Positions 40,822 to 50,242 of a stretch of 64,000 nucleotides of DNA are shown piece after piece. The position numbers and the translations under genes are program-made. Under the pieces are notes generated by a model. It made no database searches. It was not told where the DNA came from and saw only the letters and a program-made list of their open reading frames with translations. Source of the DNA: Verrucomicrobiota bacterium (lineage in GTDB: Bacteria; Verrucomicrobiota; Verrucomicrobiia; Verrucomicrobiales; DEV007); the NCBI GenBank assembly GCA_030625775.1, contig DAOUQC010000002.1, positions 62,001 through 126,000 on the forward strand, in the 5' to 3' direction. The stretch's first letter is position 1. Every line of letters begins with the position of its first letter.

Positions 40822-43122
40822 TTATCTCCGCTTGCTGGCCCTGCTTTTTTTCTCTTGTTGATGCTTTATTTTTTCTGCATGCCGGCGTGCCTCCTGCTCG
40901 GCTCGTTTCCGTGAAGCCGTCTCTGCAGCCCGTTTGCGTGACTCCATCCTGGCTTTTCCACGCCGTGACTCGGCGATCACTTTTTCCTTGGCCGCCCGTT
41001 GATGTGCCTCTTGCTCAGCTCGTTTCCGTGAAGCCGTCTCTGCCGCCCGTTTGCGCGACTCCATCCCGGCTTTTTCACGCCGTGACTCGGCAACCGCTTT
41101 TTCTTTAGCCGCCCGTTGATGTGCCTCCTGCTCAGCTCGTTTCCGTGAAGCCGTCTCTGCAGCCCGTTTGCGCGACTCCATCCCGGCTTTTTCACGCCGT
41201 GACTCGACGATCGCTTTCTCCTTGGCTGCCCGTTGATGTGCCTCCTGCTCAGCTCGTTTCCGTGAAGCTGTCTCAGCAGCCCGTTTGTGCGACTCCATCC
41301 CGGCTTTTTCACGCTGCGCCTCGGCAACCGCTTTTTCCTTGGCCGCCCGTTGATGTGCCTCCTGCTCAGCTCGTTTCCGTGAAGCTGTCTCAGCAGCCCG
41401 TTTGCGCGACTCCATCCCTGCTTTTTCACGCCGTGACTCGACGATCGCTTTTTCCTTAGCCGCCCGTTGCCGTGTTTCCTCTTCGGCTTGTTGTTGCATG
41501 ACCACCTGCGCCGCCCATTTGCGCGACTCCATCCCGGCTTTTTCACGCTGCGCCTCGACGATCGCTTTTTCCTTAGCCGCCCGTTGCCGTGTTTCCTCTT
41601 CAGCTTGTTTTTGCATGGCCACCTGCGCCGCCCGTTTGCGCGACTCCATCCCGGCATTTTCACGCCGTGACTCGACGATCGCTTTTTCCTTAGCCGCCCG
41701 TTGCCGTGTTTCCTCTTCGGCTTGTTTTTGCATGACCACCTGCGCCGCCCATTTGTGCGACTCCATCCCTGCTTTTTCACGCTGCGCCTCGGCGATCGCT
41801 TTTTCCTTAGCTGCCTGTTGCCGTGTTTCCTCTTCAGCTTGTTTTTGCATGGCCACCTGCGCCGCCCGTTTGCGCGACTCCATCCCGGCTTTTTCACGCC
41901 GTGACTCGGCAACCGCTTTTTCCTTAGCCGCCTGTTGCCGTGTTTCCTCTTCGGCTTGTTTTTGCATGGCCACCTGCGCCGCCCGTTTGCGTGACTCCAT
42001 CCCGGCATCCCGGAATGTACGTTTCTGCCCAAACCCCCGGTAATTCTTATCCGCCTGGCCTCTCCCGGAAATTTGTTTGCCTGCATCCTCCTTTTGATCC
42101 TTCACCCTGGCCACATGCCTGACACGCTCATCCTTCGAGAGATTCAACGGGTCGACATCCCTCTGTTTTGTGTGATCCAATCCTGCTCCCTGATGCTGCG
42201 CCAGGCCGATTGCATTGCTCGATTCCTCAGTTACTGGTTTTCCCTCCCTTTGAAGCCCTTGCTCAACAGCCCGAAGCCGAGTTTTCATTCCTTTCACACC
42301 AACGCTCACTCCAGTCCTCTTTTGGCTCAATTGCTGACGGAGCCCCTCGTTCCCGGATTCATGTGCTTTTTCAAAAACCTTACTCTCATTCTTCTGCTCC
42401 TGACTTGATTTGCCAACGGCAACTTGATGGATCTCTTTCCGGTGACGCAGCATCACTTTACGAGCTTTTCCCAATTTTAGAGCCTCACGAGCAAGCTCCT
42501 GACGCTTCACGCTTGCCAGGTGAAAACGATCCAAAACGCTACGGTTCATTTTTTTACCTTCGCGCAGCACCTGCACCCTACCCAGATTACTCTTCACGCG
42601 CACTGGGCACACCGCAGGGTTCCACGGGGATTTCACTGACGGGGCAAAAATCCTCAGCTGATTGCCATCCACATAATGCCGCCGCCGATCCCTGACATGA
42701 TCCCGCCCGTGCCTCAAGTCGAGCTTGTAGCGTGTGATCCTCCGCCCGCACATCCTGCTCACCCAATCATATTCCGGGCCACCGCAATACACTCGTTGGT
42801 TGCGAATGTGGATTCTCGTCACATTTGTCGTGTGAATGATAATTGAACTAACGGTTGTTCGCGGAACACAATAGCTAACAACCGGTTGGTAGAAGTGCTC
42901 CATCGGAACAAAGGAATACCACGCCGGTGAAGAATCGTAGTATGAATCAATCCCTGAATCATAGCTATAATCTTCATCGTAAACCGTTTCAGGTGGCAGC
43001 GGCGCCCAGCCAAGATAATCATCATTCGAACGCCATGACACCCAGGCGGGAGCCCAGTCCTCACCGGGAATCCAGACCCAACCCCGGTCCTGTAACAGGG
43101 CCCAACGCCCGTAATGATACAC
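40822..43122 (-). CDS. C-terminal part of a TGA-interrupted DUF6600-like protein with 39-residue repeats
   Basis: The annotated GTG at 43122 is only the first possible start; the same frame is open back to a TGA at 43236, on whose far side the frame of the 43716 gene continues. The residues before 43122 read DPDWRPYIRGRWLYSDQGWT and SDEPFGWAVYHYGRW, and those after it VWIPGEDWAPAWVSWR and DDYLGWAPLPPE. This is a typical Trp/Tyr/Pro-rich DUF6600-like domain. Residues further on are basic, then a long Lys/Glu/Arg/Ala region made of ten 39-residue repeats, probably a coiled coil. The natural product is taken to be one lipoprotein from 43716 to 40822. With the TGA read as stop, this part would have no signal peptide. 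Confidence 0.7.
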   Translation of the reverse strand: MYHYGRWALLQDRGWVWIPGEDWAPAWVSWRSNDDYLGWAPLPPETVYDEDYSYDSGIDSYYDSSPAWYSFVPMEHFYQPVVSYCVPRTTVSSIIIHTTNVTRIHIRNQRVYCGGPEYDWVSRMCGRRITRYKLDLRHGRDHVRDRRRHYVDGNQLRIFAPSVKSPWNPAVCPVRVKSNLGRVQVLREGKKMNRSVLDRFHLASVKRQELAREALKLGKARKVMLRHRKEIHQVAVGKSSQEQKNESKVFEKAHESGNEGLRQQLSQKRTGVSVGVKGMKTRLRAVEQGLQREGKPVTEESSNAIGLAQHQGAGLDHTKQRDVDPLNLSKDERVRHVARVKDQKEDAGKQISGRGQADKNYRGFGQKRTFRDAGMESRKRAAQVAMQKQAEEETRQQAAKEKAVAESRREKAGMESRKRAAQVAMQKQAEEETRQQAAKEKAIAEAQREKAGMESHKWAAQVVMQKQAEEETRQRAAKEKAIVESRRENAGMESRKRAAQVAMQKQAEEETRQRAAKEKAIVEAQREKAGMESRKWAAQVVMQQQAEEETRQRAAKEKAIVESRREKAGMESRKRAAETASRKRAEQEAHQRAAKEKAVAEAQREKAGMESHKRAAETASRKRAEQEAHQRAAKEKAIVESRREKAGMESRKRAAETASRKRAEQEAHQRAAKEKAVAESRREKAGMESRKRAAETASRKRAEQEAHQRAAKEKVIAESRRGKARMESRKRAAETASRKRAEQEARRHAEKIKHQQEKKSRASKRR
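40855..42006 (-). repeat. Ten 117-bp tandem repeats in two subtypes
   Basis: Nine full copies and one partial copy of a 117-bp unit encode AGMESRKRAA-(variable)-AAKEKA(V/I)(A/V)E(S/A)(R/Q)RE(K). Copies 1-5 (42006-41422) carry the variable core QVAMQKQAEEETRQ; copies 6-10 (41421-40855) carry ETASRKRAEQEAHQ. The phase is exact: the motif CCATCCCGGC recurs at 41061, 41178 and so on. The antisense strand is open over the whole array, giving long shadow frames. The block shift from one core to another suggests two separate amplifications. Confidence 0.9.
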
Positions 43123-43233
43123 CGCCCAGCCAAAAGGTTCATCGGAAGCCCATGTCCAGCCCTGATCAGAATAAAGCCACCTCCCTCGTATGTAAGGCCT
43201 CCAATCGGGATCTGTAGTGACCTCTTTTGGCTG

Positions 43234-43716
43234 TCAGACGTATCCATAATCGTCAGTTTGGAACCACTCTCCGAAACGCGCCAACTCCACAAAAAACACC
43301 TGGAAATCCTCCCCTTCAAGAGCCTGCTGAAAAGACGAGGCTTCTTCCTCTACAGTCGCTTGCAATGCTTCGCTCGGCTTGACCACTTTCGCCCGGATAG
43401 GTTCCGGACCTGTTTCCGTGTTTACCTCCGTTTTTGCATCCTCTGCAAACACATTTACAAGAGCTTCACTACGCTGTGCTTCAAGTTTCGCGAGAGCATC
43501 CTGCAACAGCCCGTGGGCCTCCGCCAGTTCATCCGCCATCAGCAGCCGTTCAGGCTCCGCTTGTTTCAATTGCTCGGCTTGTTGCCGCTCCTTCTGCTTC
43601 AGCTGAGCAATCCGCTCCTTCATACCGAGGGGCTCTTCAGGACGTTCACAGCCTCCCAAAAGTAAAGTCCCTGCAGCAAATATTATTATGAATAAATCAG
43701 AGTATGTTGTTTTCAT
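43234..43716 (-). CDS. N-terminal part of the TGA-interrupted DUF6600-like lipoprotein
   Basis: 160 aa from the ATG at 43716 (or 169 from 43743). Lipoprotein signal: LFIIIFAAGTLLLGGC, with the lipobox LLGGC. A charged coiled-coil stretch (RIAQLKQKERQQAEQLKQAE, and LAEAHGLLQDALAKLEAQR) follows. It ends in FFVELARFGEWFQTDDYGYV, then TGA at 43236-43234. In the DUF6600-like family 'GEW..TDDYGYVW.P' runs straight into 'DPDWRPY..GRW', and here the next codons after TGA are exactly that text. The TGA stands where Trp (TGG) is expected. Either the gene carries a nonsense mutation or the stop is read through. Confidence 0.75.
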   Translation of the reverse strand: MKTTYSDLFIIIFAAGTLLLGGCERPEEPLGMKERIAQLKQKERQQAEQLKQAEPERLLMADELAEAHGLLQDALAKLEAQRSEALVNVFAEDAKTEVNTETGPEPIRAKVVKPSEALQATVEEEASSFQQALEGEDFQVFFVELARFGEWFQTDDYGYV

Positions 43717-43877
43717 CACGAGTTTACGGGCTTTCCGATACATTGGACTGATCTCCTCTCAAAAAATTCACCTCGTTTTAGATCTGCCTTAGACTAAAAA
43801 TACACTAACCCTTTAACTGCCCATTTTTAAACACCCCGGGCAGCACTCCCCCACTTTCGCAAATGCACATAATTGGC

Positions 43878-43914: not shown

Positions 43915-44358
43915 GTGGAAACGTATCTGACAGAACTCCTCTCCCACAAGGGAGGCGATGTTTTTGGCGTTGCTCCCGAAACAAGCGTTGAGGAAGCAGC
44001 CCAAATAATGGGGGAGAGAAAAATCGGCGCCCTGCTGGTCATGCGCGATGATGAATTGCTTGGTATTTTCACTGAGCGCGACATCCTCATCAAAGTAGTC
44101 GCTAAAAAACTCAATGCCGCTGACATCGAGGTTCATAGCATCATGACCAAAGAAGTGATAGTCATCGATCCGCGTCGTACCGTTCGTGAGGCGATGCAGA
44201 TTGTGACTGAAAAAAAACTGCGCCATCTGCCTATAGTGAAAGAGGGGCAGTTGGTGGGAATGTTATCGGGTGGTGATCTCACCCGCTCAATAGTCAATGA
44301 AGCAGAGGGCGTCATCGAAACCCTCTACGAATATATCCAGGGGAGTTATCCTGCTTAG
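43915..44358 (+). CDS. Two-CBS-domain protein
   Basis: 147 aa, cytoplasmic. Two CBS motifs: VFGVAPETSVEEAAQIMGER with IGALLVMRDDELLGIFTERD, and VIVIDPRRTVREAMQIVTEK with LRHLPIVKEGQLVGMLSGGD. Each ends in the G(I/M)(F/L)(T/S)xxD signature for adenosine-nucleotide binding. There is no attached effector domain, so it is a stand-alone regulatory CBS pair that binds AMP/ATP-type ligands and acts on another protein. The start is GTG at 43915, supported by the conserved N-terminus 'L..L..KG..V..V.P' and by the promoter placed immediately upstream. Confidence 0.9.
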   Translation: METYLTELLSHKGGDVFGVAPETSVEEAAQIMGERKIGALLVMRDDELLGIFTERDILIKVVAKKLNAADIEVHSIMTKEVIVIDPRRTVREAMQIVTEKKLRHLPIVKEGQLVGMLSGGDLTRSIVNEAEGVIETLYEYIQGSYPA

Positions 44359-44800: not shown

Positions 44801-46234
44801 TCACAGCCCCTTTAACTCTGCCAGCATCTGCAAAAGGTTTTTTACCAGAATAACGGAACTGTCTTTTTCAAAACGTGAAGTCCCCAACCAGGTTTCATAT
44901 CCTCCGAGTTTGTGCTGGTTAGGTGGCGGCAGATAGCCGTAACCGCCATTAGCCAATTCGATGGTGAATGTATGCGGAAACGGGCTCTTTTCTTTTATCT
45001 CAAGCCCTATTTCTACCAGCACCTCAAAAGGCATGGAGAGGATGGCCTGGTCACCAATCCTTACTGCCTGGATGATCACACTTTCCGTTCTTTCCTTTTC
45101 CGGGCTGGCGTAAGAGATCGTATTGCTCGCCACGGAACCGGTGCGCTTGTTGATCGCATCACGCTCTTTGCGGGTCAGCTTCATCAACTCAATCGCCTTA
45201 TCCACCTGCTCCCTGGAAGGAGTCCGGTATTTCAAAGTCACCTCACGCTGGAGGATGGCCACCTTTGGATTTTCATTATAGGTCTCGATTTTTTTTACCG
45301 CCCGCCAGGCTGCATCCGCGGTCTTGTGTGCGACAATCTGAATCTGCTCAAAGGGAGCACGCGGTGATCTTTTACGATAAAAATCAATATTGTTGATGTC
45401 CCCACTGGTGCCATTGGTCATCATTGCTACAAAATTTTCCGGTGGCTTCGAAGCCCGTAGCCGAAAGGGCATGATCCTGGCAAATTCTCCATAATAGTCG
45501 GCAGATGCCATCCCCACCACTTTCCCACCCTCTTCTGTTACCTTCGGAATGCCACCTACATAATGAAGCGAATAGTTCGCGATCAGTCCCAACGCACGAC
45601 CCCGACGAGTTCGAACGTCCACCACACACACCTCCGGATCCGTCGGACCCGCAGGTTTCAATAATCTGTCTCCTCCCGCATTGGTGCGCACCTGATCATA
45701 CCCACCCAAGGGGTTTCTATCCATCGTTCCCGGCTTCAAATACCAGCGCCGATTGTAAACTTCACTCGGCTCTTCATCGGAGGCAAATCCCACCTTCGCC
45801 GGCTCAAGAGACTCAATTGCTTTTGTCAGCGCCTCCACCAATCCCTCGCGTCGAGTTTTTTCGTAGGCTATCCGACCAGGCGAGGTATCTCCACCTTTGG
45901 GTGCAGTGTGTGTGTGCGTTCCACTGACCAGCATTTGCTCCGGCTTCCATCCTGTCTTCTTCGCCACAATCGCCTTGGCTTCATCCGTCATCTCGCGACC
46001 CACCCCAATGGCATCCATCAAGGCAATGACCACACGGCCTTCTCCATTTTCGAATGCCACCGCCCGGACATGCAGCGGATCATGCACATATTTGGATTTC
46101 CCTGAGCGCAGTTGCATCGGAAATACAGTTGGAGAAATATCAACAGCGGCAGTCCCGGCGCGAAGACCGGACTGGGCCCGAACCCCTGTGGAAACACACA
46201 GGGCCAATAACAAAATGTAGAGGGAAGTTTTCAT
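44801..46234 (-). CDS. Neutral/alkaline ceramidase-like secreted hydrolase (copy 1)
   Basis: 477 aa from the ATG at 46234. Signal peptide MKTSLYILLLALCVSTGVRA. The PF04734-type N-terminus is recognisable: GLRAGTAAVDISPTVFPM, then VVIALMDAIGVG and LVSGTHTHTAPKGGD, whose His residues are candidate zinc ligands, as in the ceramidase HxH motif. MMTNGTSGDINNIDF follows, corresponding to the catalytic Ser region. The C-terminal Ig-like domain of true ceramidases is short or absent. In this bacterial group such proteins are abundant near sulfatases and their substrate is unknown. It is a tandem duplicate of the gene at 46414. Confidence 0.85.
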   Translation of the reverse strand: MKTSLYILLLALCVSTGVRAQSGLRAGTAAVDISPTVFPMQLRSGKSKYVHDPLHVRAVAFENGEGRVVIALMDAIGVGREMTDEAKAIVAKKTGWKPEQMLVSGTHTHTAPKGGDTSPGRIAYEKTRREGLVEALTKAIESLEPAKVGFASDEEPSEVYNRRWYLKPGTMDRNPLGGYDQVRTNAGGDRLLKPAGPTDPEVCVVDVRTRRGRALGLIANYSLHYVGGIPKVTEEGGKVVGMASADYYGEFARIMPFRLRASKPPENFVAMMTNGTSGDINNIDFYRKRSPRAPFEQIQIVAHKTADAAWRAVKKIETYNENPKVAILQREVTLKYRTPSREQVDKAIELMKLTRKERDAINKRTGSVASNTISYASPEKERTESVIIQAVRIGDQAILSMPFEVLVEIGLEIKEKSPFPHTFTIELANGGYGYLPPPNQHKLGGYETWLGTSRFEKDSSVILVKNLLQMLAELKGL

Positions 46235-46258
46235 TGTTGAGTAGTCTCTAATGGTCGC

Positions 46259-46279
46259 TGAAATACGCAAGCATAATAG
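46259..46279 (-). promoter_or_regulatory. 21-bp upstream element of ceramidase-like copy 1
   Basis: On the minus strand this reads CTATTATGCTTGCGTATTTC followed by A. The same 21 bp occurs at 47869-47889 at exactly the same distance (25 bp) from the start codon of copy 2. Conservation while the surrounding bases differ suggests a shared promoter or 5'-leader element (CTATTAT may be the -10). Confidence 0.5.
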
Positions 46280-46413: not shown

Positions 46414-47844
46414 TCACTGCGCTTTCAATTCCGCCAGCATCTCTAACAGATTCCTAACTAAAATGACCGAGGCATCCTCTTCAAAACGCGAAGTTCCCAA
46501 CCAGGTTTCATATCCCCCGAGTTTGTGCTGCTTCGGCGGCGGCAGATACCCGTAGCTACCATTGGCTAACTCGATAGTAAAAGTGTGAGGAAACGGACTT
46601 TTCTCTTTTATCTCAAGCCCGATTTCTACCAATACCTCAAAGGGCATGGATACTATGGCTTGGTCCCCAATGCGGATCGCTTGTATAATTACGTTTTCTG
46701 TTTTTTCTTTTTCCGGACCAGAGTAGACAATTGTATGGTTTGCCACTGAACTGGTGCGCTTGTTGATCGCATCACGCTCTTCGCGCGTCAGCTTCATCAA
46801 CTCAATCGCCTTGTCCAGCTGTGACTTGGAAGGAATCCGGTAATTCAAAGCCAATTCACGCTGAAGGATGCCCACCTTCGGATCTGCGTCATAAGTGTCG
46901 ATTTTTTTCACTGCACGCAAAGCCGCATCCGCAGTCTTGCTTGCCACGATTCGAACCTGTTCAAAAGGCGCCCGGGGCGGTCGTTTACCAAAAAAATCAT
47001 AGTTATTGATATCTCCACTGGTTCCGTTGGTCATCATCGCCACAAACTTTTTCGACCGCTTCGAGCCTCCATATCGGAAGGGCATAATTCGGGCAAACTC
47101 TCCGTAGTAATCGGCAGAAGCCATGCCCACAGCTCTTCCCTTGTCTCCCTTCACCTTTGGAATACCGCCCACATAGTGCAGTGAGTAGTTGGCAATCAGT
47201 CCGAGGGCATAGCCGCGACGAGTGCGAACATCCACCACACACACTTCTGGATCCGTGGGTCCCGCAGGTTTCAAAAGATTGTGCCCTGTATTCGTACGCA
47301 CCTTGTCATACCCGCCCAAAGGGTTTCGATCCATGGTGCCGGGCTTCAAAAACCAGCGCCGATTGTAAACTTCACCCGGTTCTTCATCGGAAGCAAAACC
47401 CACCTTGGCCGGCTCAAGTGATTCGATCGCTACAGTAAGTGCTTTCACCAAACCTTCCATGCGAGTCTTTTTGTAGGCAATTCGTTCCGGCGAGCTGTCG
47501 TCCCCCTTAGGCGCGGTGTGCGTGTGTGTTCCGCTGACCAACATTTGCTCAACTTTCCAACCGGTCTTCTTTGCCGCAATCGCCTTGGCTTCATCCGCCA
47601 CTTCTCGGCTGACGCCTATGGCATCCATCAATGCGATGACAGCACGACCCGCTCCATTTTCAAATGCGACCGCCCGCACATGCAAGGGATCATGTACATA
47701 TTTGGACTTCCCTGAACGCAAATGCATTGGAAAAACAGTTGGAGAAATATCAACAGCGGCGGTTCCGGCGCGAAGGCCTGATTGAGCCCTAATCCCCGTG
47801 GAAACACACAGGGCCAATAACAATATGTAGAAGGATGTTTTCAT
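46414..47844 (-). CDS. Neutral/alkaline ceramidase-like secreted hydrolase (copy 2)
   Basis: 476 aa from the ATG at 47844; signal peptide MKTSFYILLLALCVSTGIRA. The sequence follows copy 1 closely over its whole length: GLRAGTAAVDISPTVFPM, LMDAIGVSREVADEAKAI, LVSGTHTHTAPKGDD, MMTNGTSGDINNYDFF and the C-terminal GGYETWLGTSRFEEDASVIL. All candidate metal and Ser residues are kept, so both copies appear functional. Differences cluster in surface-like Lys/Glu stretches and in the KRSKKF segment (copy 1: KPPENF). It is upstream of copy 1 in the direction of transcription, with a 179-bp gap that includes copy 1's own upstream element, so each may be transcribed separately. Confidence 0.85.
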   Translation of the reverse strand: MKTSFYILLLALCVSTGIRAQSGLRAGTAAVDISPTVFPMHLRSGKSKYVHDPLHVRAVAFENGAGRAVIALMDAIGVSREVADEAKAIAAKKTGWKVEQMLVSGTHTHTAPKGDDSSPERIAYKKTRMEGLVKALTVAIESLEPAKVGFASDEEPGEVYNRRWFLKPGTMDRNPLGGYDKVRTNTGHNLLKPAGPTDPEVCVVDVRTRRGYALGLIANYSLHYVGGIPKVKGDKGRAVGMASADYYGEFARIMPFRYGGSKRSKKFVAMMTNGTSGDINNYDFFGKRPPRAPFEQVRIVASKTADAALRAVKKIDTYDADPKVGILQRELALNYRIPSKSQLDKAIELMKLTREERDAINKRTSSVANHTIVYSGPEKEKTENVIIQAIRIGDQAIVSMPFEVLVEIGLEIKEKSPFPHTFTIELANGSYGYLPPPKQHKLGGYETWLGTSRFEEDASVILVRNLLEMLAELKAQ

Positions 47845-47868
47845 CGCTGAATAGTTTCTAAGCCACGA

Positions 47869-47889
47869 TGAAATACGCAAGCATAATAG
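47869..47889 (-). promoter_or_regulatory. 21-bp upstream element of ceramidase-like copy 2
   Basis: Identical to the element at 46259-46279 and at the same distance from the start codon. It overlaps the short gap to the EamA gene, whose stop is at 47899. Confidence 0.5.
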
Positions 47890-49768: not shown

Positions 49769-50242
49769 ATGAAAATTACAGCTGTCCTATCCACAATCAG
49801 CATTCTAGTTGTCTCAACCCTTCTCCTATCATGTGGCAAAGATAATGGTGACTCCCAGCCCCATGACCCTGACAGCCACTCGACCCACTCAGACTCGATT
49901 ACCATAGAAGACAGCCTTGACGGACTTAGCCTAAACAAGGGGGGGAAATGGAAAATGGATGATCACACCCGGTCTATGTTTGCCAAGATGGCCTCTTCCT
50001 TTTTAAACTCCGATTACGCAGACTTGGAAGAAGCCGATTTGAAAAAGGCAGGGGCTGGCCTTCAAGTTAATATCAATGAATTGATTCAAGGTTGCTCCAT
50101 GGAGGGAGATGCTCACGACCAATTGCATGCTTATCTCAATGGCTACATTCCAGCAGTCACCGATCTTTCGGAGTCGGGTCAGATGAAAGACGCTAGGGAA
50201 GTCGCGCGTTATTTGAAAAAATACAGTGACTACTTTGAGTAG
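49769..50242 (+). CDS. Hypothetical lipoprotein
   Basis: 157 aa from the ATG at 49769; the frame is open from 49673, but those codons do not look coding. Lipoprotein signal MKITAVLSTISILVVSTLLLSC, with the lipobox LLLSC. A His/Ser/Asp-rich linker (DSQPHDPDSHSTHSDS) follows; it could bind metal, which is not shown. The helical C-terminal part starts LSLNKGGKWKMDDHTRSMF and continues with FAKMASSFLNSDYADLEEAD. Envelope-anchored, function unknown. It is convergent with the DUF1501 gene, stops 3 bp apart. Confidence 0.7.
   Translation: MKITAVLSTISILVVSTLLLSCGKDNGDSQPHDPDSHSTHSDSITIEDSLDGLSLNKGGKWKMDDHTRSMFAKMASSFLNSDYADLEEADLKKAGAGLQVNINELIQGCSMEGDAHDQLHAYLNGYIPAVTDLSESGQMKDAREVARYLKKYSDYFE

Follow-up and report, generated by a model that had tools for sequence, protein, structure and literature searches.

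Pseudogenes that are young and quickly removed are usual in bacteria, as described in Salmonella (PMC2916853). Internal-stop artefacts are frequent in draft assemblies, and many of the internal-stop pseudogenes reported from bacteria are assembly artefacts (PMC11017572). In E. coli and Salmonella, UGA is leaky and inserts Trp, and a number of in-frame stops in prokaryotic genes have been attributed to read-through (PMC7918605). A literature search for DUF6600, the domain of the protein considered here, found no mention of it.

The locus described below lies in a window of 64,000 nucleotides (the whole stretch of DNA analysed, from contig DAOUQC010000002.1 of the Verrucomicrobiota assembly GCA_030625775.1), in which a gene for a lipoprotein-like DUF6600 protein is interrupted by one in-frame TGA. 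If the base is real, it is like recent single-nonsense pseudogenes of bacteria (PMC2916853) in carrying one disabling change in an otherwise intact frame; like them, too, it is restricted to one lineage and affects a patchily distributed gene. Prokaryotic stops attributed to read-through (PMC7918605) also occur in genes free of decay and as UGA at a Trp position; the window's TGA differs from these in being conserved in no relative, so that the dN/dS argument of that study is inapplicable here. With other DUF6600 proteins (PF20245) the window's copy shares the full domain, at 126–128 bits, and a lipobox-like N-terminus, and with the copy from the same genus a long, charged or repetitive C-terminal tail; it differs from the other DUF6600 proteins examined in that it alone has a stop inside the domain. 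The features of the locus, in positions of the window, are:

40822..43743, minus strand: complete lipoprotein-like gene with DUF6600, of 973 codons and a terminal TAA, with a single TGA interruption
43234..43236, minus strand: in-frame TGA in a normally-Trp aromatic column of DUF6600; the next base is C
43234..43743, minus strand: upstream fragment of 169 aa, in which the signal/lipobox region and a coiled linker precede roughly the initial 22 positions of DUF6600
42988..43287, minus strand: DUF6600 domain (PF20245; Pfam match), split by the TGA
40886..42006, minus strand: C-terminal tandem array of 117-bp (39-aa) repeats, 9.6 copies, all in frame
43915..44358, plus strand: divergent CBS-domain gene adjoining the DUF6600 gene

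Between 43743 and the TAA at 40822, the only internal stop in the minus-strand frame is the TGA at 43236..43234, located, as a preliminary description had reported, between ...GEWFQTDDYGYV and QPKEVTTDPDWRPYIRGRW.... The start at 43716 given in that description is not favoured; a better-placed codon, and probably the start of the gene, is the ATG at 43743, which follows AGGAG after a 9-base spacer. In the protein read from that start, a signal-like stretch ending in LLGGC would be followed by a charged linker and then by DUF6600, with a middle part between this domain and the 39-residue repeat array; the lipobox-like LLGGC points to a lipoprotein-like N-terminus. The joined frame matches PF20245 at 126.3 bits, above the curated cut-off of 27 bits, and thus belongs to the DUF6600 family; the post-stop piece alone scores 103 bits, and the upstream fragment alone has no Pfam match. 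Since the TGA falls inside one Pfam domain, the two open reading frames are not neighbours by chance. The tail of the same-genus copy is comparable and rich in Lys, Arg and Glu, without a close sequence match to the 39-aa array (40886-42006); rapid turnover of repeats in the C-terminal tail is suggested.

Elsewhere in the window, two adjacent and very similar minus-strand genes (44801-46270 and 46414-47880) show a weak, below-cut-off match to neutral/alkaline ceramidase (PF04734), and the pair may have arisen by recent tandem duplication. A TAG at 50240 splits same-frame open stretches of 219 and 86 codons, whose codon usage resembles that of coding sequence and for which no start codon lies nearby; neither piece, nor the two joined, has a Pfam match.

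In the nearest genome of the genus (G002), the DUF6600 gene has TGG at the position of the TGA and is likewise adjoined, upstream, by a CBS-domain gene; this divergent neighbour, common to both genomes, places the two DUF6600 copies at the same (orthologous) locus. The column is aromatic in all 65 distinct homologues, with TGG (Trp) in 55, TTC or TTT (Phe) in 8, TAT (Tyr) in 2 and a stop in none. The earlier expectation of Trp at this site is therefore right in substance, but the column is aromatic and not Trp only. A search of the family found no stop among the 24 other DUF6600 matches listed (25 including the window's copy), and a search of the order found one in none of the approximately 150 matches listed, the window's copy aside. 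When aligned, intact homologues run through the site unbroken, and homologues with two separate proteins meeting here, named in the preliminary description as the pattern that would speak against a split gene, were looked for and none was seen. The single change of TGG to TGA that it proposed agrees with TGG in the closest relative and with a frame that is open apart from the TGA. A second interrupted copy in the same genus, suspected from a count of "1 TAA", was rejected; the TAA is the normal terminator, which the alignment had overrun. Scans for the exact site with either G or A returned nothing from viral contigs and nothing from genome contigs, the latter a set from which records very near the window's genome are possibly excluded, and a first protein scan of the genome contigs confirmed no relative.

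The genome uses the standard code. Of the 193 genes that reach 200 codons or more in approximately 346 kb of the assembly, 86 end in TGA; release factor 2 (prfB) is present and intact (496 bits); and all 43 tRNA matches were typed by ARAGORN, giving CCA as the sole tRNA-Trp anticodon and no UCA anticodon among them. The exclusion of a global code change, made earlier from the use of TGA as a stop in other genes, is borne out by all three observations, and reassignment of UGA to Trp (code 4-like) was rejected in view of release factor 2, the CCA-only tRNA-Trp and the TGA terminators in use. A selenoprotein was rejected as well. The lone match above the tRNA-Sec threshold of 47 bits scored 47.4 bits and is a tRNA-Leu(TAA), SelB has no match over the cut-off in the genome, no stable fold follows the stop, and the column holds Trp, Phe or Tyr and not Cys or Sec. 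The fold of the 113 nt around the TGA is no better than that of shuffled sequences (z = 0.56), and a structured read-through element was rejected on this ground. In programmed read-through the stop is kept among relatives, with conserved coding sequence to either side of it; here the TGA occurs in one genome only, which argues against a conserved recoding site. Conserved recoding or reassignment at the TGA is thus not supported. Low background read-through of UGA to Trp is plausible from what is known of the codon, and C, the base that follows, is the rarest after TGA terminators in this assembly (12 of 86).

The gene shows no further sign of decay. All 803 codons downstream of the TGA are open, in a gene in which 450 of the 8,757 possible single changes could create a stop; the 973-codon frame contains one disabling change only. 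Columns in which at least 85% of homologues agree are all unbroken in the window's copy (the TGA being read as Trp for this test). Among the repeat copies, pN/pS is 0.46 in the coding frame, whereas the two alternative frames give 1.35 and 0.80. Beyond the stop, DUF6600 shares 86% identity with its same-genus counterpart, at a pN of 0.105 and with synonymous change saturated; because of this saturation, a dN/dS comparison of the window's copy with that counterpart was set aside as uninformative, and in any case the two would have diverged for the most part before the stop arose. Relative-rate counts against 15 outgroups gave no indication that the window lineage has evolved faster, more unique changes falling in the sister in most comparisons. 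Further decay or relaxed selection was looked for in these ways and not seen, and a very recent event could lack such signs. Together, these observations argue for selection that acted until very recently or is ongoing; the stop would then be young, spurious, or harmless by way of read-through.

The preliminary description left a nonsense mutation, a sequencing error and read-through side by side; these can now be ranked in that order, with functional read-through a distant third. With modest confidence we favour a nonsense allele, real and of recent origin, by which TGG became TGA in a dispensable, formerly intact DUF6600 gene. One recent G-to-A change would have turned the Trp codon into TGA, at which most ribosomes would terminate and release a lipoprotein stub of 169 residues, without about 80% of DUF6600 and without the entire repeat tail; too little time would have passed since the mutation for the remaining frame to decay, and full-length protein would be made at most in small amount, through ordinary misreading of UGA by tRNA-Trp. 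The stop itself, and its absence from every relative examined, are observed, as are the standard code and a gene free of other decay; that the base is real and the product lost, we infer. In assembled sequence a recent mutation and a consensus error would look the same, and an error at one base, or a minority strain allele taken into the consensus, with the true gene intact and carrying TGG, is a possible but less probable account. In its favour are the draft state of the assembly, which is fragmented into 158 contigs, the rest of the gene, which appears intact and constrained, and the frequency of artefacts of the kind noted above; against it, the TGA is a substitution that does not lie in a homopolymer, is distant from the contig ends (contig position 105234-105236 of 131,661) and is separated from the repeat array by approximately 1.2 kb. 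Nor did a codon-usage scan of approximately 346 kb of the same assembly, which has low power, find a run of other nonsense-split genes; in most of the in-frame pairs that it gave, a start codon lies close to the second frame, and the known DUF6600 split, which scores +0.23 upstream and −0.02 downstream, was not listed by it.

A decay-free downstream frame is equally expected of a gene that is functionally read through. A real TGA read as Trp by tRNA-Trp(CCA), with a useful level of full-length protein, would fit this frame, the C after the TGA and the insertion of the very residue required here, yet it is unlikely given that the TGA is confined to one genome among the relatives examined, that the surrounding fold is at shuffle level, and that the genome combines an intact release factor 2 with no UCA tRNA, tRNA-Sec or SelB over the cut-off. 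More doubtful still is that a real TGA is tolerated because leaky decoding of UGA(C) as Trp supplies enough DUF6600 protein, which might then act as a low-dose or switchable surface lipoprotein. Two separate proteins, a short lipoprotein ending at the TGA and a second one starting downstream, are very improbable; an open reading frame of 766 aa does begin with GTG at 43122, but this codon lies 37 codons past the TGA, within DUF6600 and without an evident Shine-Dalgarno sequence, and no homologue is split at the site.

A DUF6600 match is present in 22 of 75 genomes of the family and in 137 of 289 of the order, a patchy distribution which implies that loss is tolerated in the group; by this measure the nonsense allele favoured here would affect a gene that is apparently dispensable. 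As one broken or mis-sequenced copy of a patchily distributed gene, the case is of little import alone. For annotation it calls for caution, as gene callers would report two products, a lipoprotein of 169 aa and a DUF6600 fragment of 766 aa, for what is one gene.
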